64,000 nt of DNA from Theocolax elegans (Eukaryota; Arthropoda; Insecta; Hymenoptera; Cerocephalidae). The notes beneath the pieces were generated by a model, which was not told where the DNA came from, did not search any database, and was given only the letters and a program-made list of their open reading frames with translations. The stretch is taken from contig CM047429.1 of NCBI GenBank assembly GCA_026168455.1, positions 52,645,027 to 52,709,026 on the forward strand. The letters are read 5' to 3'. Position numbers and translations under genes: made by a program. This document shows, piece after piece, positions 576 through 64,000 of the stretch. How positions within the stretch are numbered: position 1 is the first letter of the stretch; the number at the start of each line of letters is the position of its first letter.

Positions 576-1248
576 TATGATCCGAGACTCCTCCTTGTTA
601 GTTAAATGTAATAATTAAAAGTATGGGCTAATAGTAATTGTAAGTTATATTAGCAATAATTGTTTTACTTTCTGCACTCTGTTAAATTTTATTTCAAATT
701 ACACTTATAAAAAATAATAAGTAAACAATAATTATAACATAAGTAACCTTTGTCACTAATAATACAATATATATCATTAATTTAACTAAATAAGCTTTCC
801 AATATAGTGAACTCAATATACTGCCTTATTCGTCTTTTTTTAATTACAGGTTTGTTTTGTAGCTTTATGAATCAATTATTATTTATATAGAAAGCCTTCG
901 TATCAGTACACTTGTAAGTTTATGATGTATAATTTTATTAATATAATATTATTTTACATTTTATTAATCTCTTTCATTATTACATTTTCCATATTTGATA
1001 TAGATAATATAAAGTTGTCAATTAGTAGGGTATTTAACATAATTTATATAATTTATATATAATTATATGGCATTGGATCACGAATATGCCTTATGTAACA
1101 ATATTCTGACGATTAAGACATTAGTTCTATGTAAGTGCGTTAGGGGGCTACCTGTTAATATGTGGCACTTATTAAAGTTTGCTATCGGTAGGGCATATAT
1201 ACCCCATGTCTTCCTCGTCAGGTTTTCAAAAATTTTTATATCTGTCAT

Positions 1249-1317
1249 TTGTATCTAGAGACGAGATGCCTGGACTCTACTGATGAGCCCACCAGGCATA
1301 CTCAGGGCGAAATACAA
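1249..1317 (+). ncRNA. Type III hammerhead self-cleaving ribozyme motif
   Basis: All conserved hammerhead core parts are present in the right order. Stem III 5' strand is TTGTA (1249-1253), followed by the cleavage triplet A-T-C with predicted cleavage after C1255. Stem I is TAGAG (1256-1260) with CTCTA (1275-1279). The CTGATGA box is at 1280-1286, stem II is GCCC (1287-1290) with GGGC (1305-1308), the GAAA box is at 1309-1312, and the stem III 3' strand is TACAA (1313-1317). Stem III is the open stem, which makes it type III. Loop I (1261-1274) and loop II (1291-1304) are both 14 nt and contain complementary 8-mers, ATGCCTGG (1266-1273) and CCAGGCAT (1292-1299), able to form a loop-loop pseudoknot. 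An 8-T run follows soon after stem III. It sits antisense within intron 5 of the first odorant receptor gene. Catalytic activity is inferred from structure only. Confidence 0.86.
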
Positions 1318-1781
1318 TTTTTTTTCCGTCTTATTAAGTTTTTATTAATTTTATACTACAATCAACTAAATTTTATATTTTTGTTGACTTAGCTTGTCTT
1401 AGTCTTTTTTCGAACACTCATCCTGTGAGGTTTCTAAAGTGGCTGGTATTAATACAGTCCGCCTTATTTGAGATGTGAGGAATGTTTCTTTGGCTTGTAA
1501 AGATCAATAAATTCATTTATCATATAACTTATAGCGTACAAAAGCAATAAATTCACGAATTTTTCTAATAGTTGGAAAATTCAAATTTTAAAATAGCCAT
1601 TTTTGAGTTACAAAAAGTAGGCGTAAAATTCAAGAAATGTAAAAAAAAATGTCAAAAATATTATATTTGACTTTGAATATCTCCCAAAATTTTAAATTTA
1701 AGCCTCTAAATTTAAAATTTAAATAAAATTTTTTTAGTCGCTCAATTTGACAGAGAACCGCCCATATATATATATATTTAC

Positions 1782-3735
1782 TTCGTCGACGAGGCATTGA
1801 CCGGCAAAACAATAAGCAAAAAGAAGGAATATCGTTCCAGCTGCGCATGTTAAAAATGTTAACATTTGCGTGTTTTCTCTTTGGCTCCAATTCTAAAAAT
1901 AATCCGTTTTACGAATTAAATTGCACTTGCGTATAATTATAGTTACAATTTATTTATGTAATAAAATTTATTGAATCTTACCATTAGCGTACTGTATCCA
2001 ACAAAGCAAAGAAAGAACGTCACGCTCAAAATTTGTTGAAGCATTAGCAAATTGAATACCGAATCTAATCTTTTTGCCATCCTTGGGCATAAAGTCAAAT
2101 GAAGAAAATATTATAAAAAGAATAAAGAATTTTGAGAAAGTATCGGAATTCCAATCCACATAAACAAACATACTTAATTTTAAGTTCAGAGAGTAGAGCG
2201 AAGAGGAAAGAGTCGTTTGCTTTTCAGCATCATATTTAAATCAATTTAATCTTTTCAAGACGTAATTGCTACTCTCTAGTTTACTTTTTAGTTTTATAGT
2301 TCTTTGCAAGTACAAAAAAATAATGATACCAAGTCGTACAAAATCTTTAAGAATGGGAACGTATAATGCTGTTTATATCTACTAAATAAAGAAAAGTATA
2401 TCTGCATATAGTGTAATACAAAGATGGACCATGCTACTCATTGACTTGCGTCATTCGACTCTTCCCTAGTAAATGCTATTCAAACATTAGATATATTAAG
2501 GGCATATAGCTTATATAATTTAAATGGACTATTTCCAAATAATTGTATATTTGTATATTCAACAGTTGGAAACTATAAATTAACAAAATCGTGGTGTAAA
2601 TAGCTACTTTTAAAAAGGAAAGAAAATTGTATACCCAATCAATCGGTGATGTTCTATAATAACTCTCTTTGCGTGAAGTCGAAATTTAGTGGCATCATCG
2701 GCAAAGTGCGTAAGCACACTGTTTGACAATATGGATAATTGTCCACAAATGTGAGCTACTAATGCCAACATTAAACTGGCATCGGCAACCAGTGTGAATG
2801 AAGTTATTGGAATCACTGGTAGTAAATACAGTAAAGCGCATAGGTATGTATTAAAATCCGTTAGAGGAAAGTAGAAGCGCATACGGTATGGTAAAATAAA
2901 TGTTGTTTTATTTCCCGCATCTAAATCGAATGGAATAAATGTATTTAATGTACATTGCAGATACATAAATTATTCTATATTCAGCACATTGATATCCGAT
3001 TTTTTCACAATAATAAATTCTATATATAGAATAAGTACTATTTTTTCATGTTATACTATTTCAATGTTATATTTATATATAAATGTAAATACGAACCTGT
3101 ACTCATAGGAATTCCAATACCTCCAACTGTAAATGGTCTCAAAAAATAAAGTATCGACGATGCAAAGGATACTGGAATAGCTACTTTAAAGAAAGTTTTT
3201 GCTCTGAAAACATAATTGATGAACAAACTAACATCCACTTGATTTTTGTATTTTTTAATCGAATAATCTGACTCTATTTCATTAAGAAGTTTTGCAATAC
3301 TATTACGTTTTATTTGATACAATGAAAACTTGGTTAATACTGTTATCATTGAGCCAACTTCTGTAATAGCGTCAACCATATTATTCATGTTACTCAAATT
3401 TTGTGGCAAAGCTGCGCAACTCAAAATAAAATGCATTACTGAGTACGTGAATATGGTGAAGTACACGATATTGTTAAAATTCAATGGATTTAATCCAAAT
3501 AATGTAAACAATTTTTTATTCCATGAAAATACGATTTCAGCCTCGAATAATTGTGACTATATCAGCAATAGAAAATGAAAAAACATTTTAAAATATATAT
3601 GAACGTCAAAATTGAATATAAAACAGTTGATAATGCACTAAATACCTCTAATTTTTGAACATCCACTTTAGACATGACAATCGTGTCATTTAAATAAATC
3701 GATTTTGAGGATTCGCATCTCGAAATACCCACCAT
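1782..3735 (-). CDS. Odorant receptor (7tm_6 family), 3' end outside window
   Basis: A seven-transmembrane insect odorant receptor, which forms ligand-gated cation channels with Orco in olfactory neuron dendrites. Five of the expected seven exons are visible on the minus strand: 3735-3646, 3556-3097, 2920-2635, 2081-1982 and 1892-1782 (1047 bp, 349 codons). All junctions have GT/AG and compatible phases (0, 1, 2, 0, 0). Exons 3, 4 and 5 are 286, 100 and 111 bp, identical in length and phase to the neighbouring receptor at 4830-11306, showing tandem duplication. Family-typical segments are visible, e.g. PYRMRFYFP in exon 3 and AYCFAGQCLVDE in exon 5. The start used is M at 3735; a second in-frame ATG 20 codons later (MSKVDVQKLE) would better match the short first exon of the neighbour. 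Exons 6 and 7, carrying the conserved C-terminus, are not seen down to position 1, so the gene either continues beyond the window or is truncated. No frameshift or stop occurs in the visible exons. Confidence 0.85.
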
Positions 3736-4829
3736 TTGTATTCTGTATTTTTATATTTAAAATTGCTCAAAAAATCACACCTCCTTCTTTTTTATTATTA
3801 AAACAAAATAAGAGCTAATTTTAGAAAAATGGATTACGCATTATAAGTACGTGAAAAATATGTACATGTAAAAGTGTGTCGAAGCTGGTATGTGTATATA
3901 GTTACAGAGCAACATGTAAACGCGATAGTGAATTATAAGATATAATTATACCTCTGCACATATTTAAAAAGAAAGTATTACAATACATATACATATATCG
4001 TTGTGTAAATCTGTGAAAATCTGTATAGGTGTTAATTAATATCAACATATCAACAGTAATGAATAATGTACTGCAATTTCTATTACTTCTATACCTTATT
4101 CCGATATATAAATTAAAAAATCAGTAGAAATTATAAAATAAATTTATAAATTGTTTACGTAAATTATTGGTGTAAAATCAAACACATTTACTTTATTGCA
4201 CATTTACTGCGTAACTGTTATGTACCTAAATTTGTCTCCTGCTATACTATACTTTTACGAATGCAAACGAATTTTCTATGTACGTTTGAAGTAAAGCGTA
4301 CCATTTATTTTATTTACACGAAACACTCGTGAGTATCACTGCCTAGGTGCTGCATTATACTTTTAGAGACAATTAATGTCATTATCTACGATTGTACAGT
4401 GTATAATTCATTTATACTATACGCTTCGTACGTTATACTTCTTCCAGATACATTGCGAAGCTTAAACAATGTAAAACAAGGGAGTACGATCTTTACAAGA
4501 AACATTCAATTTCGAATTCAACAGTTTATTACAAACTTATTTACTAAACTAGTGCAAGTGACGAAAGTGACACGATATTTGTTACTAAATTTGACTAAAG
4601 TATTATAATTAGGTAGATATTATATTTTTCATTCGTTCGGTAAATATTTCATTCTTTATTTATATATATAGCATGAAAACTAATAGACATTTTTAATAAA
4701 ACGTGTGTAACTATTCAATTTATATGTTTTAGATTTTAAGGAAGTATGTTGAGAATGTTTATTTCATTAAGATTTTCCCAATTTACGGGAAATGTCTAAA
4801 TGTTGCAAATTTTTTCAGGATAAATTGTT
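3736..4829. other. Intergenic spacer between tandem odorant receptors
   Basis: About 1.1 kb of AT-rich DNA separates the 3' end of the upstream receptor from the start of the downstream one, on the same strand. The only ORF over 60 codons, on the plus strand at 4399-4608, has no recognisable family features. I see no RNA gene or repeat here. It presumably contains the promoter of the 1782-3735 receptor and the 3' UTR of the 4830-11306 receptor. Confidence 0.5.
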
Positions 4830-7800
4830 CTACATTACAGTTCTCAATACTGATAAGTAAGCCATAGCAGTTTTTATACTCTGTAAATTTAACGTTTCAT
4901 AACAATTGTAATTTAAATAGTTTAAACATATATTCATAAGTGTTTTTATATATCCTTACATCAGTTAAAGTTGCAAGGCAAAACATTCGAAATTTACCAG
5001 CTTTTAATTGTAAGGGCCTTTGAGAGCGAGCCATACAAAACAGGATTATTCTCGCATTCTCTTTGGACATATTGTACCATTGGCAATCGTAATATGCTTG
5101 GAAAACCCGTTCGCTCTGAAAGAAAATAACAATAAGAATAAAATGAACGTTATGAAGTATCGATTTCGATACAAGTTCAATATAAACCACGAAGACGATC
5201 GTTACCTCTGTTATTAAGCTTTCACCGACTGTACAATGAGCGTACAGTACTAAAAGTACCAAAAATATGAATGCAAAAAATGGTATTAAAACAGCTGTCT
5301 CTCCATTTGCTAAACTCTGAATTTTCATTTGATCGATTATTACTTTGTTAATATATTATAATACTTTTTTCTATTTTATTTTACAAGATTATTAAACGTA
5401 CCGTTAATATTTGATAGCCAAGTATGCATAAAAGAGAGGTGGCACCTATCAGGTGTCCAAGCAGTATTACACTGAAAGCTTCCTCGATAACTTTTCCCAT
5501 ACTATTTAATAGAAATACATTACTTGTTAAACGTGTGAACTTTGTACAAGTATCAAACATTGAAAATTCATTATTATTTCTTGTAAATGTATTTGCGATA
5601 CTTTTTACCATAGTAATTCTTACTTTGAAATGTATACAAAATTACAAATTCATATGGGTAATTTCTTTGAATTATTGCATTATTTGATTTTAAGAATATA
5701 AATGAAATTTGAGATAAATTGTACAATTCTATATATGAGGAAATCCACGCGAAATTTGCGTTTTGACGTCCCCAAAAACGAACAAAATTTTTTTTTGATG
5801 CACACCTTCCACATGTGAATTTTCTCACTCGTATAGAGGTGTATAATAGGTGAAACTAAACTCCAATATGCGAAAACTCGAAACGCTCGCTTTAAATGGA
5901 CTTTAGTATAAATTAAAGGTTAAAAAAGTGGAAAAACCTTTTTTAAGTTTTATTTCAAATCAATAATGTTCAAAAATATTTTTGTATTTGAAAGCTTATA
6001 ACTCGTATACAACACATTGCTTGGATAATTCACTTACATGATTATACATAGCATTTGCAATTTTAAATTCATTTCTTTTATTCGCGACTTTACATAAAAC
6101 TTGTGTTGGAAAAACCATTTGAATATCTGATGTTTTTGGCCATGAAAAACGCTTTCCATTGCGATTTAAAAAATTAATTTTTCAATAACCATTCTCTATT
6201 TTGTTTATTCTTCCGGGATATCATTTATCGTCAATAACAACAATCCAATCTCCAATTTTAAAACTATTTACTGTATTGTAAATTTGATTTCATTTCCGGT
6301 GCATCATAAGCGACAAAGTTTAATTTACATGTTGGGTCAGATTAAAAATTACGGTGAACCGTGGATAAATAATGAAACGATAAACAATTTTCATTTTGGT
6401 GTAACCACACAACTTGGTGTACTTTTGATGAACCTGCAACACATTTTAGATTTGTAGGTACTAAAAGCATCTACTTTTTTTATATCAACTTCTTGTTGTA
6501 TAAAAGAAATCGTTTTACAATTTGAATTATTTATTACATCAACCATATCTTTGGCACACAATACATCGTTCCCATACGTTACACCTCGATTACACATTTC
6601 TTTAAAGGTACCCCCCATATACCATCGGCCACACTTTTTCCGTGTCCTGCGGTCGAAAAATTCCACATAGCAGTCTTTAAATTCAATATTTTACAAAAAT
6701 AATTAAACAAAAAAAAATTTGTTTTACTTTTATATTGGGAAGTCGGATTGTTAGATTGAAAATGAATTATTTCTGCTTCAGGTATTATTTCTTGTATTTT
6801 TTAAAATAGTTGCATCAAGGAAGACCAAACCGTAGTAGGGTCGTAACGTAAGCAATCTGATACTGTGACGGATAATTGAAAAATTACTGAATTTGAATTA
6901 TCTTTAAAATAAAAACCACCTGCTTATAGAGAAAATACAACTTGTATTTCTTCAATAATTTTACGAAAAATCTATAACTATAAAAATTAAATTTTGCAGC
7001 AAATTACTTTTTAAAAATTCTAAAAATTTATACTGATATAAACAAGTGTATGAATGAATTAAAATTTTTTGAAGAATATTATTAAAATGTTCAATTAATT
7101 GCGATATAGCAATCTATTTTCTTCTGTGAAATTATTTTGACCTTATTTTCTATCTACTCTTGAACCCATGATAAATATGATGTAATTTCAGAAAAATTAT
7201 TTGAAGATATTTTATAATCTTTACAAACATCACACTCTCTAAATATACAAATTTTATTTTCACCATCGCAGCATATCGATTTTAAATATAATTGAACATT
7301 TTTAAATTTTATTATTCCGAGTCGACGAAGTTTATCAAAAACAAATCTAAAATTACTATGTTCTTTGCATAAGCAAGTATCTTTTGCAGAAACTTTTTGT
7401 TTAACAACCCTATATTATAAAATAAACTTTTTGAAATAACATTGACTCTCTACAATAGTTTTTGTGCAAATTATCGACAGTATCAGATAAATATCGTTCG
7501 TGCATTTTTGTTTTTTATTTTGTTATAAGGTCTTGAATACCTGGAGCAGGTGAAGAGTTTTCATCGCTCATATAAAAATTAATTATATTACTTTAAAAAA
7601 TTTTTTTTCCTTTACTTTTTAAAATTCATTTTTCCTAAGTAATTTGATAATTAATGATCTTAACATTTACATTCATTACTGCATCTGTATTGTTATTAGA
7701 ACAATCAAGAAACTTCGCAATCATTATTTTTTATTTGTGTGTTGGCAAACGCGACCATTTTAATTTTAATTGTTTTGTATAGTTTTTGTAAATCATTACT

Positions 7801-10800
7801 TGTTTTTTGAAAATTTTATTTCGGCGCCGTAAAGAATTTTGGGTTTTCTTATACCTTATTGAACGAGTTTCGATTAGTTTTTGTTTTCTTTCCGATTGCT
7901 GCTTTTCGAATTCTAATTCTCATTAAAGAGCTGAAATCTCATCGCATATTTTCATTTCAAGCGCTCGGAATTCTGTTTTCTGAGAATCGAGGTATTCGTT
8001 ATAATTTTCAGATTTTTTAGATTTAATAAAATTCGTAATCTCCTTTGTATCGATATAACCTCTTCATTCACTGCCACTGAATTTAATTGACTGCGAGTAA
8101 ATAGAAAATGAATACAAATTATATACCTATTACAATTATTGATGTATCTTACTCTTTCTCATTCCATTTGCTTTTTAAGTACTTTTTTTTAATCGACTTT
8201 GCTCCTGAATGCGTATTCTCGCTTTTTTGCTCTTGCTATTTCTTTTTTTATATTAATCTATGATTCAGTCTTATTGTATTTTGCCAACCTTCATTTTATT
8301 TATTACTAATAATACTATTGATTACTAATATAATGTATTATTAATATATTTTATTACAATATTGACACACACAACTCCGTGTTCTTAAATTAAGTTAACT
8401 AAGCTCTGGGGGTTCGTTTTGCCAACATAAAAAACATGAAAGTACAACAGTTTAGCAATAATTACAAAATTTGAACTAGGCTTTACTGATCTAAATTTAA
8501 ACGAGATTTTTTGCAAATACAGCTCAACTTTGTTGATTTGTAATAAAAATTGAAAAAGGTCCACTTTTTAACCTTTAATTTATACTAAAGGTGATTTAAA
8601 GTGAGCTTTTCGAGCGCAAAAAGCGTAATTTGCACTTTTATTTATACAAAATGCCAAAAATACCCTTTTAATTAAGTAAATTGAGACCAACCTTTAAATT
8701 GTAAATAGTGAAAATTATAGTTTATGATATTGTATTAAAAAGTCCCATTTCACAAATGATATTTAACGCTTACTTTACATTTTAAAGTGTTTTATAATGA
8801 AAATTGCAAAAATATCGTTAAAAATCGTGTTTTTTTATTTATAAAGTGAAAACAATGTGTGTGTGCCGAGCCAGTTTTCGCATGTTGGAGTTTAGTTTTA
8901 CCTATTGTACACCTCTACGAGTGATAAAATTCACATGTAGAAGTTGTACATAAAAAAAAAAAAAAAATTTGCTCGTTTTTGAGGACGTCAAAACGCAAAT
9001 TTCGCGTGAATTTCCTCATATATGAATCAGAATTAGAATAGAGCATTTTATGATATACATAAAAGAAAATTCAACTAACTTTATCATACGTAAAAAATGC
9101 GTGATAAAGTGAGTTAAAGTTAATTTTAAAAACAAAATTTAATCTATTCAAGCATATATAATATGTAAATTAAATCTTCGTAAATTAATTCTAAAGGCCA
9201 TAACTTGGAATACAGTGAGTATAACAATAATGTTTCATTAGAAAACAATTATTCTGGTGTTTATCGGATTAAGATAATTTTTTTTAATTTTGACACAACC
9301 TTGAATATTAATGAACACAAAAGCAAATAATAGTTCAAATACGATAATACAACTATTAAAATTACAAATGTTTTAATTAATTAAACAAATATTTATTTAT
9401 ACCTCGGTACACAATGCCTGTATGAGGATATTTTATTTAATGCCCGAGATAATTGTAAAAATATTTATTGTCGTAATTTATTTAAATCATTATTTATTTA
9501 AATTTACAATAAGTATTTAATTGATTTTATACAGTAAAATCGTTATCTCGATATCGTTATTGGAACAAATTGTTAATAATAATTGCGTCAATAGTAATTA
9601 CCGAAGCAATCTGATGTGGGACTGAACGATCCTATGAACTTGTTTAGTGCATTTGTAAGGATCGGTATCAATGGCAGCAATGCGCAGGGAGAGGACGGCC
9701 ATCTGTCCGGAAACGTGGTAGACCAGAGTGACCATCAGGCAATCGGCTGCGCATTGCCCAAAACCGCTGACGTAGACGAAGGGCATCTGAGATCCGTAAG
9801 TCCAAAAGTACGTAGATGCGTCCTTTAATTCGTAAAACGTGTAAAACCGATAAGGCAGTAAAAAGATGAACGTTACATTTCTTCCACCTGTGTTCACGTA
9901 TTCTATAACTATATTGTAAATTAACACAATATTAATTGTAGTAACATTATTGATGACACTATCAATTTATGCAGATCAACATATTTTATTCTAGCTTCAG
10001 AACTACTCTTACCAATATTTAAGGAGATGTCTAATCCTGTAATTATTCATTCATTTTATATATGTGTGTGTGCGTGTGTGTGTGTGTGTGTGTAAAGAAA
10101 AGCGATCTACAAATGTTTTCCATTAGAGATTAGAGTGTAAACTATAGGATACGTACATTTTTAAGACTTTTATATCAAACAATTTATATTCATAATGTTT
10201 AGTTTACCGTCCGTGTATACTTTAAAACTGAATGCTACCGATAAAAGGTGAATAAATAAAAATTGCGCTTTTCCTAATAATTTTGCTTCGTCAGGACTTC
10301 GCATACGTTTCAAATTTATTTTGTGCAAAAAAAGTAGATTTCAATAATTTGGGTCCAACATCCCTTAAAAGTTTTAATTGAAAAAAGTCGTAAAACTATG
10401 TTAAATTTATTATATATAAGTACAATATATTTTATAAAAGTTAAAAAATTTTTTTTTAAATAAATTGACATTATATTAAAGTGTTGATATACTGTTTCGG
10501 AAATCTATGACACGCTAACTAGCTCATAAGTTAAGGTCATTTGTATTAAGTGCTTTAGATTTAATAATTTTTCTGAAGAAATGATTTGTTCAATTTACCA
10601 AATGGTTGCAAACATTTATTTCATTTGAAAAGAAACTCAATAAGAATTGGTGATATTGTTAAAAAAGTGTAGCTCAAACTCGAAGATTAATACATACTTG
10701 GTCCCATTTGTGCCAACAACGGCTTCAGATAATAACTCGAAGCAGTTAACGTCGTATTGGTGATCAACAATTTCATGAAAGTCTTAGATTTAACGTGATA

Positions 10801-40600: not shown

Positions 40601-41490
40601 TGAAAAAAGTCTTACCAAAAATGTGAACGTAACCTCAACAAGGTGAAAGACTTGACATTTTATGGCTAATGTGCGCCTTTTTTGCACATACGTTTATACT
40701 TTTTTTTATTGATTAATCACCAAAATTTAAACATGGGTAATACCCCTTAAGCTTTTAAAGTAATGTCGCGAATAAAGAACAGTTGATATTACTAACACTT
40801 AAATATTTAAGGGCTGTTGTTGGGGAATAATCGCGTCATTGTCAAGTTAACTTTCAAATCAATTTTGAAAATCCAACGGAGAATCTTGTATGGTGAGTTA
40901 GAAAAATTTTCTAGTCGGTATTGTGCCTAAATTTTGATTACTAAAAGTTACCTATAGACTCTTCTTGATAATTAATTAACAAAAATGGTTGTTTTATAAA
41001 TTGTCTGAAACCTACAAAAAAAGGGCAAAAAATTCCGGTACCGGGAATCGAACCCGAGCCTCCTGGGTGAGAGCCAGGTATCCTAGCCACTAGACCATAC
41101 CGGATCTTGCTCAATTTTCAGTAGAAATCAGTGAAATGGTTTTTCCGGCTAGTAAAGATAACATAGTATAATAATAACTATATATATTCAAGTAAGAATG
41201 ATTTTTATACTTTATTTGTAATCAATAAATACTCATAAGTAAATTTTACGTGTAGATCGTATGAATTGTATATTAGAATGTCAATTCTGTATTATGAATC
41301 ATATGATGATAAAATAGAGACCTACTATCTCACATTCTCCGTCAATAATATAGCCTTACAGATATCTTCGCGTTGCGGAGAATATTGACTTTACGGAAAG
41401 AGAAGTATGATAAGATATGAGAATATGTACTTCTATTTAGGACAATACAATGATTTCTTCTGTTTATGTTCATTATGTAATTTTCATACC

Positions 41491-62202: not shown

Positions 62203-62698
62203 GCTCTCACCGTTCGATGAAAATCTCTCTAGGGATTTCCCTTCGACTCTTTCATCGACTGTTCGGCGTACAAATTTTTTTACCGTAGCATCATTTCGTC
62301 GACACTCTCTACGATATTTTTTTCGCTCTTAAAAAAAATTTACGCGCAACATTTCATATATAGTTATTTTATAATTCATAAAGCAATGTTATCCTACATT
62401 GCAAGGAATGTAAATACTGTAATAATTTACGAAATTTAAGTGAAGAAAATATTGTAATCATGGTTTACGTAGATCGTTAACTTATTGCATATACAAATGT
62501 CAAACTTAACCTGATCACTTATAATACATATATATATTTGAGATCGTCAAATGTTTATATTGAGTTGTAAATTGATTTTGCAAACTTAGCCGCTAGAGTT
62601 CGCATAATAAAAATTGTTATTAATTTTCTTTCCCATCAACAATTTACGCCGGGAAAACCATAAAGTCGATGGATGATTGCGATAAAAGCATAACTTAC

Positions 62699-62756
62699 TT
62701 GGCGCGGAGGATACCGTGATCACGTAGGCGGCTCCTCCTGGGGGAGACTCAGTCAT
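62699..62756 (-). CDS. Candidate first coding exon of an unidentified minus-strand gene
   Basis: On the minus strand an ATG at 62756 opens MTESPPGGAAYVITVSSAP and runs into a strong donor (AA then GTAAGT) at 62699/62698. Its GC content is higher than that of the flanking DNA, and the sequence upstream lacks an obvious acceptor, fitting a first exon. No matching downstream exon was found on the minus strand in the window, so the gene would need a long intron or be nested around DYNC2LI1. Family not recognised. It could also be a chance ORF. Confidence 0.35.
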
Positions 62757-64000
62757 TGCACCGACGACTCGAGTTGAACCTTGCGAATACTCCTTCTGTG
62801 GGTATATCGAGCGCAAAATTTTTGGTAGTTGGGATCAGCGTTCGCGCGATCCTGGTATTTAATTCCAAAATTAGTCAATTTTTTTTGTTCAATAACTATT
62901 GTATATTATTGCACTTAATTATTGATATTCTAAGTATAATATTATACAAGGAAAACTTTTTTATATAATTATTCCGAGCTATAAATATAAATTTAAATTA
63001 TCGTTTAGTATTACAAAATCCGAATACCCACTTTTGATTAAGCTAACCAACTTCTTTGAATGCACATATACAGATAAATCTGTATTTTAAATATCTCGGC
63101 GTCATTTCATAAAGTAGTTCCTTTGAAGAAAAAAAAAGATCGATTTTGCTGACCTTGAAGCTCATAGCATGCATTTGGCACTGATCACTAAATACCAAGG
63201 TTTACTTTTATATCTTTAATAGTCAAATTTTATTACGTTATTTTGACAGATCTCACAATTGTTTAAAATATCTGATTGTGACACGCGTGCAGTTTACATA
63301 ACGAATTGTTCTAACACGTCGGGAACGAAATTAATCATTATTACCAAAGTTTTATAACAACGACGAAAGCCTACTATACCTATTTACTACATTATATAGA
63401 AGTTTTGTTAAAGAAAAGCAAAAGTAACTCGTCGGTATAGATGTTGTGAGAGATTAATCGCACGATTCAGACCTAAAACCACCGCTCAATAGTTCGGACA
63501 TTTATCGCACGTTCACTTCTATAAGTTCTGCCAAATGGAGCAAGTTTATACATCTATGCGTATAATAATAATAGTATATCTATCTATTCATAAACAAAAA
63601 GCATCAAAAGGACTATCGCCATCAATAGCTATTCAATTAATAAATTACGTATTACATATTTGAAAAGATTCTGAAAATTTCATATCATTGTTAGCGCAGG
63701 TATAATATTCTTTAATGAAAATTTTAAGTAAATGATACATATTTTATTGAGTCCCTAAAGCTAAAGAAATATTTGTTCGGTTAAATGATGTCTTTAATAC
63801 AAAATTTAATGGAAGATAGAACGATTTAATAAATGCGATAGATTTGTTTTATTATTTTAAATAAAAACATATTAACTTAATAAAATGAATGTAACAAAAT
63901 AGACTTTGTTAGTTTCATCTACGTATAAGTAGATGCCTGCAGCAGTAAGTTCAATATCGGTCGAGGTTACAGAAAAATGTTTCACTAAAAAAATCGACGA
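62757..64000. other. AT-rich non-coding end of window
   Basis: About 1.2 kb with no recognised gene, RNA gene or repeat. It would be the upstream region of the candidate minus-strand exon at 62699-62756, or intron of a plus-strand gene starting at about 59.6 kb. Confidence 0.45.

Follow-up and report, generated by a model that had tools for sequence, protein, structure and literature searches.

The window analysed here, a stretch of 64,000 nucleotides from the wasp Theocolax elegans (contig CM047429.1, positions 52,645,027 to 52,709,026 of the forward strand), contains a type III hammerhead ribozyme motif that we assign, with a probability of roughly two in three, to a non-autonomous, retrozyme-like mobile repeat of this chalcidoid, mobilised in the manner of Penelope-like elements (PLEs). 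The motif, its copies, the ends of the insertions, their target-site duplications and one unit without the hammerhead are all present in the assembly.

The hammerhead motif

The 69 bases at 1249-1317 of the plus strand hold all conserved hammerhead positions, and the core and three stems follow one another in type III order, with stems III, I and II of 6, 5 and 4 bp. The core elements and pairing stems that the sequence-only reading had claimed were thus verified at these coordinates; the six pairs of stem III include U1254-A1312, which that reading had assigned to the core. The features of the motif are as follows.

1249..1317, plus strand: type III hammerhead ribozyme (core and stems, Rfam model, descriptor, loop pairing)
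1249..1254, plus strand: stem III, 5' strand
1255, plus strand: H17, with cleavage predicted 3' of C1255 from its position within the motif
1256..1260, plus strand: stem I, 5' strand
1261..1274, plus strand: loop 1
1266..1273, plus strand: loop 1 portion of the predicted loop-loop helix, ATGCCTGG
1275..1279, plus strand: stem I, 3' strand
1280..1286, plus strand: core CUGAUGA (DNA CTGATGA)
1287..1290, plus strand: stem II, 5' strand
1291..1304, plus strand: loop 2
1292..1299, plus strand: loop 2 portion of the predicted loop-loop helix, CCAGGCAT
1305..1308, plus strand: stem II, 3' strand
1309..1311, plus strand: core GAA
1312..1317, plus strand: stem III, 3' strand

A run of eight T (1318-1325, plus strand) lies immediately 3' of stem III.

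The bare core, CTGANGA-N4-30-GAAA, is not rare, with 3 matches in the window against 3.05 expected. The complete type III descriptor, with minimum stem lengths of 4/3/4, gave a single match when both strands of the window were searched and none in 87.4 Mb of random sequence (one strand), generated by a second-order Markov model with the trinucleotide make-up of the window. No second hammerhead of type I or III was found on either strand of the window when up to one core mismatch was allowed.

The scan with the Rfam type III model that the sequence-only reading had proposed gave a divided answer. RF00008 (Hammerhead_3) matches 1248-1318 with an E value of 3.1e-6 on 161 bases, but the 34.5 bits of this match fall below the gathering score of 48.5, and the motif is unlisted at that threshold, which is the curators' library cut-off and not a feature of the ribozyme. 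At the gathering threshold Rfam returns a U1 spliceosomal RNA gene (62691-62855, plus strand, 115.9 bits) and one tRNA gene (41033-41104, minus strand, 63.5 bits) in the window, and nothing else. One copy of the motif in each of three other loci (L128, L131 and L133) likewise scores 34.5 bits; the scan, which covered 30 kb at E <= 0.05, gave no further hits apart from a weak match to a microRNA.

The sequence-only reading had missed that loops 1 and 2 are perfectly complementary over 8 bases (1266-1273 and 1292-1299), a degree of complementarity reached in 90 of 200,000 shuffles of both loops. Pseudoknots of this kind occur in ~40% of hammerheads, and disrupting one of them strongly cut the cleavage rate, according to PMC3088659. 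The 116 genomic copies described below contain 1 compensatory change and lend no covariation support to the loop 1-loop 2 contact. Folding of the motif region does not yield the hammerhead when pseudoknots are disallowed; the two loops pair as a hairpin instead (-21.3 kcal/mol, against -9.0 kcal/mol for the nested hammerhead). The ribozyme would therefore need the pseudoknot to compete with this hairpin, which is a real caveat.

Copies, arrays and content of the repeat

Blastn of the window against 29 other excised loci gave alignments that mostly span the same interval, which delimits the repeat.

1058..1594, plus strand: a single monomer of a repeat of ~545 bp (from blastn alignments to copies elsewhere in the genome)

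This monomer has 537 bases and, by alignment, is without 10 bases present in the hammerhead-less unit L135 (see below). In the wasp's own genome (658 Mb), 1225-1330 as query found at least 41 matches at 97-100% identity (best 40 of 1,659 candidates), lying among the matches listed on seven contigs (C1, C2, C3, C5, C6, C7 and C972), a result that bears out the earlier suggestion that the motif belongs to a mobile element. Twenty regions of 10 kb were chosen from these matches. Long arrays occupy five of them (L114, L115, L117, L118 and L123), with a unit spacing mostly of 532-551 bp, and the other 15 hold shorter insertions, of several units in L116 and L132. Two long frames accompany the L132 insertion: one of 717 aa inside the array (2167-4320, minus strand), which reads by eye as a Copia-like polyprotein, and one of 369 aa (7734-8843, plus strand), which looks integrase-like, likewise by eye. 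A different dispersed repeat lies at 216-419 of the window; its segment 276-419 has 79% identity with L119 3453-3596, and 216-267 matches L129.

The 20 regions yielded 141 aligned fragments and 116 full hammerheads, of which 50 are distinct, 36 are letter-identical to that of the window and 85 have all tested core bases. The core is intact in 33/38 hammerheads of dispersed loci versus 52/78 of arrays, and all 8 loop-loop pairs are kept in 33/38 versus 47/78, rates that are biased upward by the choice of loci for hammerhead likeness. In one array (L118, C3:45299000-45308999) the core is intact in only 3 of 19 hammerheads, and most of the broken ones carry T in place of G8 (window 1285). Among dispersed loci, which were selected by likeness to 1225-1330, divergence is 1.1% in the hammerhead versus 3.9% outside it, and 3.8% of 69-nt windows are as low. 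Selection on the hammerhead is not claimed; when the core was taken by itself, random sets of columns were as low in 20.9% of cases.

The unit has a G+C content of 0.326, and no conserved reading frame was found in its 537 bases across 95 copies with the start motif. A coding unit was rejected: the frames range from 6 to 141 aa, and variability is alike across the three codon phases. Folded as a circle, the sense unit is slightly better than its shuffles (z -1.51, 6/60 as good) and the antisense unit gives z -2.23; a strong circular fold of the sense strand was not found.

These properties bear on the idea that the repeat derives from a viroid-like or HDV-like RNA agent copied into DNA, which we consider very improbable. 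HDV-like RNAs of toad and termite do have type III hammerheads with loop 1-loop 2 pairing, and related motifs occur in termite genomes, as PMC7936874 reports. The wasp hammerhead, however, lies on the plus strand only (types I and III scanned in the window), its unit has no conserved reading frame and about one-third of the 1,500-1,700 nt of those agents, and many copies are bounded by target-site duplications. Viral contigs searched with an exact pattern resembling the motif gave 0 matches, and blastn against phages gave matches at chance level only. A looser pattern hit 83 loci in viral contigs, 7 of them with a type I/III descriptor match; none was used as a relative.

The odorant receptor neighbourhood

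The copy in the window consists of one unit, which lies next to or within an odorant receptor gene encoded on the other strand.

1782..3556, minus strand: odorant receptor-like gene exons (Pfam 7tm_6 match and translation)

Within this interval, 2610-2969 (minus strand) matches 7tm_6 at E 1.4e-4, under the curated cut-off, and exons of neighbouring receptor genes on the same strand (4897-5355 and 9598-9966) score above it. The exon at 1782-1889 (minus strand) was assigned by its translation, and the repeat copy lies beyond it. At a distance of ~1.6 kb from the window, L134 holds a candidate for the last exon of the receptor (E 4e-4, 29% identity). The copy therefore probably sits in a receptor intron, antisense to the gene. 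The intronic placement proposed by the sequence-only reading is thus plausible, but gene and ribozyme occupy different strands, minus for the exons and plus for the ribozyme. The option, also raised there, of a regulatory element is not supported, since the motif is antisense to the receptor gene and arrived with the repeat. We rejected a regulatory ribozyme of the receptor intron as scarcely credible: the probable intronic location speaks for it, and the antisense orientation and the many copies, 36 of 116 elsewhere being letter-identical, speak against it.

The window also encodes a mitochondrial carrier whose closest relatives are proteins of chalcidoid wasps, with 70%, 68% and 62% identity to those of Phymastichus, Trichomalopsis and Eretmocerus, respectively. 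All three genera are placed in Chalcidoidea.

Anatomy of the insertions

One insertion was counted per dispersed locus (n=15); second copies in L119 and L120 were excluded, as their flanks are common with those of the first copies. Two points of the unit recur as ends.

1526..1533, plus strand: point E, end of 13/15 dispersed insertions (unit alignments)
1593..1594, plus strand: point T, inverted end of 10/15 dispersed insertions and right end of the window copy
1528..1594, plus strand: 67-nt stretch from E to T, resembling the 'tail' of PLEs as described in PMC11167929 and PMC3846280

The exceptions to end E (~1527) are L131, which ends at 1593, and L116, which ends at 1329. An inverted segment ending at T is present in L116, L119, L120, L122, L125, L126, L127, L128, L129 and L130; in L128, L129 and L130 the first alignment overran into the flank (1604, 1646 and 1603) and a two-unit query puts the end at T. 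Both E and inverted T occur in nine insertions, seven of which have a target-site duplication. L121 combines end E with an inverted end at 1550, and T is the inverted end in 10 of the 11 insertions having one. L124 and L133 are forward only, starting at 1490 and 1489, which on the circular map is 38-40 nt before their own end point, like a full turn plus a short overlap; this pattern of one circle plus ~40 nt (n=2) is not relied on. L116, L125 and L130 hold insertions that exceed one unit and extend to as many as several.

Target-site duplications flank 9/15 dispersed insertions, with a length of about 8-14 bp in the clearest cases. Eight were found by script (L119, L120, L125, L126, L127, L130, L131 and L133); random flanks were as good in 3/200 trials for L120 and in 0/200 for each of the other seven. 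The ninth, of 13 shared bases, emerged from comparison of the L128 flanks. The script found no duplication in L116, L121, L122, L124, L132 and L129 (the left end of the last being misplaced in the test), and none was found for the window copy. In L120 (C1:40463000-40472999) two insertions ~6.5 kb apart have both flanks in common, so the surrounding DNA was duplicated after insertion.

Twin priming by LINE-type enzymes is compatible with inverted 5' segments and with duplications of 8-14 bp. The same retroelement could then be served by such an enzyme instead of a Penelope-like one, a reading that we judge quite unlikely. No poly(A) or simple repeat was seen at E in the insertion ends inspected by eye, and the inverted end falls at T in 10 of 11 cases, where twin priming would be expected to scatter the ends. 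PMC7229834 leaves the choice between LINEs and PLEs undecided.

Of 24 cDNA stop points, none was located 3 nt or less from the predicted cleavage site. Together with the multi-unit insertions, this fits circular or uncut multimeric templates better than linear cut RNA; the 0/24 result fits uncut multimers equally well as circles. A clustering of stops near the hammerhead (12/24, P 0.049) is not relied on.

Units without hammerhead

A query away from the hammerhead (1440-1594) found at least 41 matches (best 40 of 1,898 candidates), 16 of which lie in C1:55.35-55.38 Mb with neighbours 469-475 bp apart. One unit read from this region (L135, C1:55372690-55373390, 701 bases) is without the hammerhead. 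Window position 1250 is joined there to 1318 (CATTT joined to TTTTTTTT), the exact point being ambiguous within a T run, and the gap is bounded by two T runs. All 40 scored matches of a query across this junction (best 40 of 1,221 candidates) fall in C1:55.28-55.38 Mb, a ranking in which array likeness favours this region over dispersed copies. In the other fetched loci, which were picked for having the hammerhead, 0/85 units with both flanks recognised are without it. The gap may represent loss of the hammerhead or the state before its gain; the join coincides with the base of stem III, the position expected if the template had been jumped across the closed stem.

This ~100-kb region, the long arrays and the mostly broken cores of L118 (3/19 intact) are what would be expected of plain satellite DNA, spread by unequal exchange and by re-insertion of excised DNA circles, in which the hammerhead would be a passenger from an older element. 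We consider this explanation unlikely, as insertions at dispersed loci end at the fixed points E and T and carry inverted segments and target-site duplications.

A proposed life cycle

Our preferred reading is a type III retrozyme served by a Penelope-like enzyme. Transcription, cleavage, circles and a helper enzyme are the parts of this cycle that we infer. Tandem copies would be transcribed in the plus sense, and each hammerhead, held by the loop 1-loop 2 helix, would cut the RNA after C1255 into monomers of ~545 nt, as the intact motif suggests. The monomers could be ligated into circles, by analogy with the retrozymes treated in PMC7229834. A Penelope-like reverse transcriptase would prime on both cut target strands and begin reverse transcription at two fixed RNA points 67 nt apart, E (~1527) and T (1594), and the two cDNAs would join head to head; fixed ends, inverted segments and duplications all point to such priming and joining. 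Arrays would then expand as ordinary satellite DNA, a stage at which the ribozyme would not be needed; the ~100-kb region holds a unit form without it (one unit read).

More specifically, the insertions may be the footprint of a Penelope-like enzyme acting on circular RNA from two fixed starts on both target strands, with a natural knock-out in which hammerhead-less units were amplified at a single locus and hammerhead units dispersed through the genome; we put this forward tentatively, as a real but doubtful possibility. In that case the ribozyme would act in dispersal and not in satellite growth, and hammerhead repeats could spread in animals without type I architecture. Several observations count against the proposal, namely that 6/15 dispersed loci and the window copy yielded no target-site duplication, that the tail has 67 nt versus 30-40 in PLEs, that the circular fold is weak, that 116 copies show 1 compensatory change, and that few L118 cores are intact. 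Furthermore, the hammerhead of a lizard PLE was not needed for insertion in vitro (PMC11167929), which argues against a strict need of the hammerhead here.

Significance

Reviews place type I hammerheads in animal repeats and type III in plants and RNA agents (PMC7761336 and PMC7229834). There are exceptions: mammalian Clec2 genes carry a discontinuous type III hammerhead in their 3' UTR (PMC6155905), and termites and dipterans have type III motifs with pseudoknots. For hymenopterans PMC7936874 reports no such motif; it also refers to unpublished cases from dipterans, which, if repeats, would be nearer relatives. The open-licence literature searched revealed neither a hymenopteran nor an animal tandem repeat with a type III hammerhead. 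The vast majority of repeat-associated eukaryotic hammerheads are of type I, and PMC3088659 raises, among other possibilities, that type I is required for repeats to propagate. An animal repeat that has insertion footprints and a type III hammerhead is directly relevant to that question. Our results suggest that mobile elements based on the type III hammerhead may exist in animals as well as in plants. The host range of pseudoknotted type III hammerheads given in PMC7936874 would widen to hymenopterans. The hammerhead-less units offer a natural control for the role of the ribozyme.

Comparison with known systems

Plant LTR retrozymes share with the wasp repeat the type III hammerhead and a comparable unit length (600-800 nt), but they have LTRs and 4-bp duplications, whereas the wasp repeat has arrays, inverted ends and longer duplications (PMC7229834, PMC7761336). 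Metazoan non-LTR retrozymes are short AT-rich tandem units with a hammerhead, with multi-unit dispersed copies and target-site duplications > 4 bp, and the wasp repeat shows tandem hammerhead units, low G+C and duplications of this kind. Their hammerheads, however, are of type I in units of ~150-450 bp, in contrast to the type III motif with predicted loop-loop helix and the ~545-bp unit of the wasp (PMC7229834, PMC7761336).

In the ribozyme itself, the wasp motif resembles the pseudoknotted type III motifs of termites, dipterans and HDV-like agents, with their 5-bp stem I, Watson-Crick loop 1-loop 2 pairing (predicted in the wasp from the 8-base complementarity) and insect host (PMC7936874). 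Helix I of these motifs bears an additional hairpin, their stem II has 6 bp (4 bp in the wasp), and those of termites are isolated, unlike the repeat-borne wasp motif (PMC7936874). HDV-like agents carry ribozymes on both polarities, whereas in the window the plus strand alone has a type I or III hammerhead.

In the manner of insertion the wasp repeat resembles PLEs, whose end copies may be in tandem or inverted and which have a tail delimited by two start points of reverse transcription, duplications of ~8-10 bp and hammerheads (PMC11167929, PMC3846280). PLEs encode a reverse transcriptase and a GIY-YIG nuclease and have minimal type I hammerheads, whereas the wasp unit is non-coding and of type III (PMC11167929, PMC3846280). 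The inverted end copy, tail and short target-site duplications described for PLEs (PMC3846280) are all seen in the wasp insertions, the tail of 67 nt being longer than described. The enzyme of a lizard PLE cuts and extends both target strands and uses two adjacent internal RNA start sites, the interval between which is the tail (PMC11167929). PLEs have been proposed, not demonstrated, as mobilisers of animal retrozymes (PMC7229834), and the two fixed end points of the wasp repeat make this proposal testable against the PLEs of the same genome.
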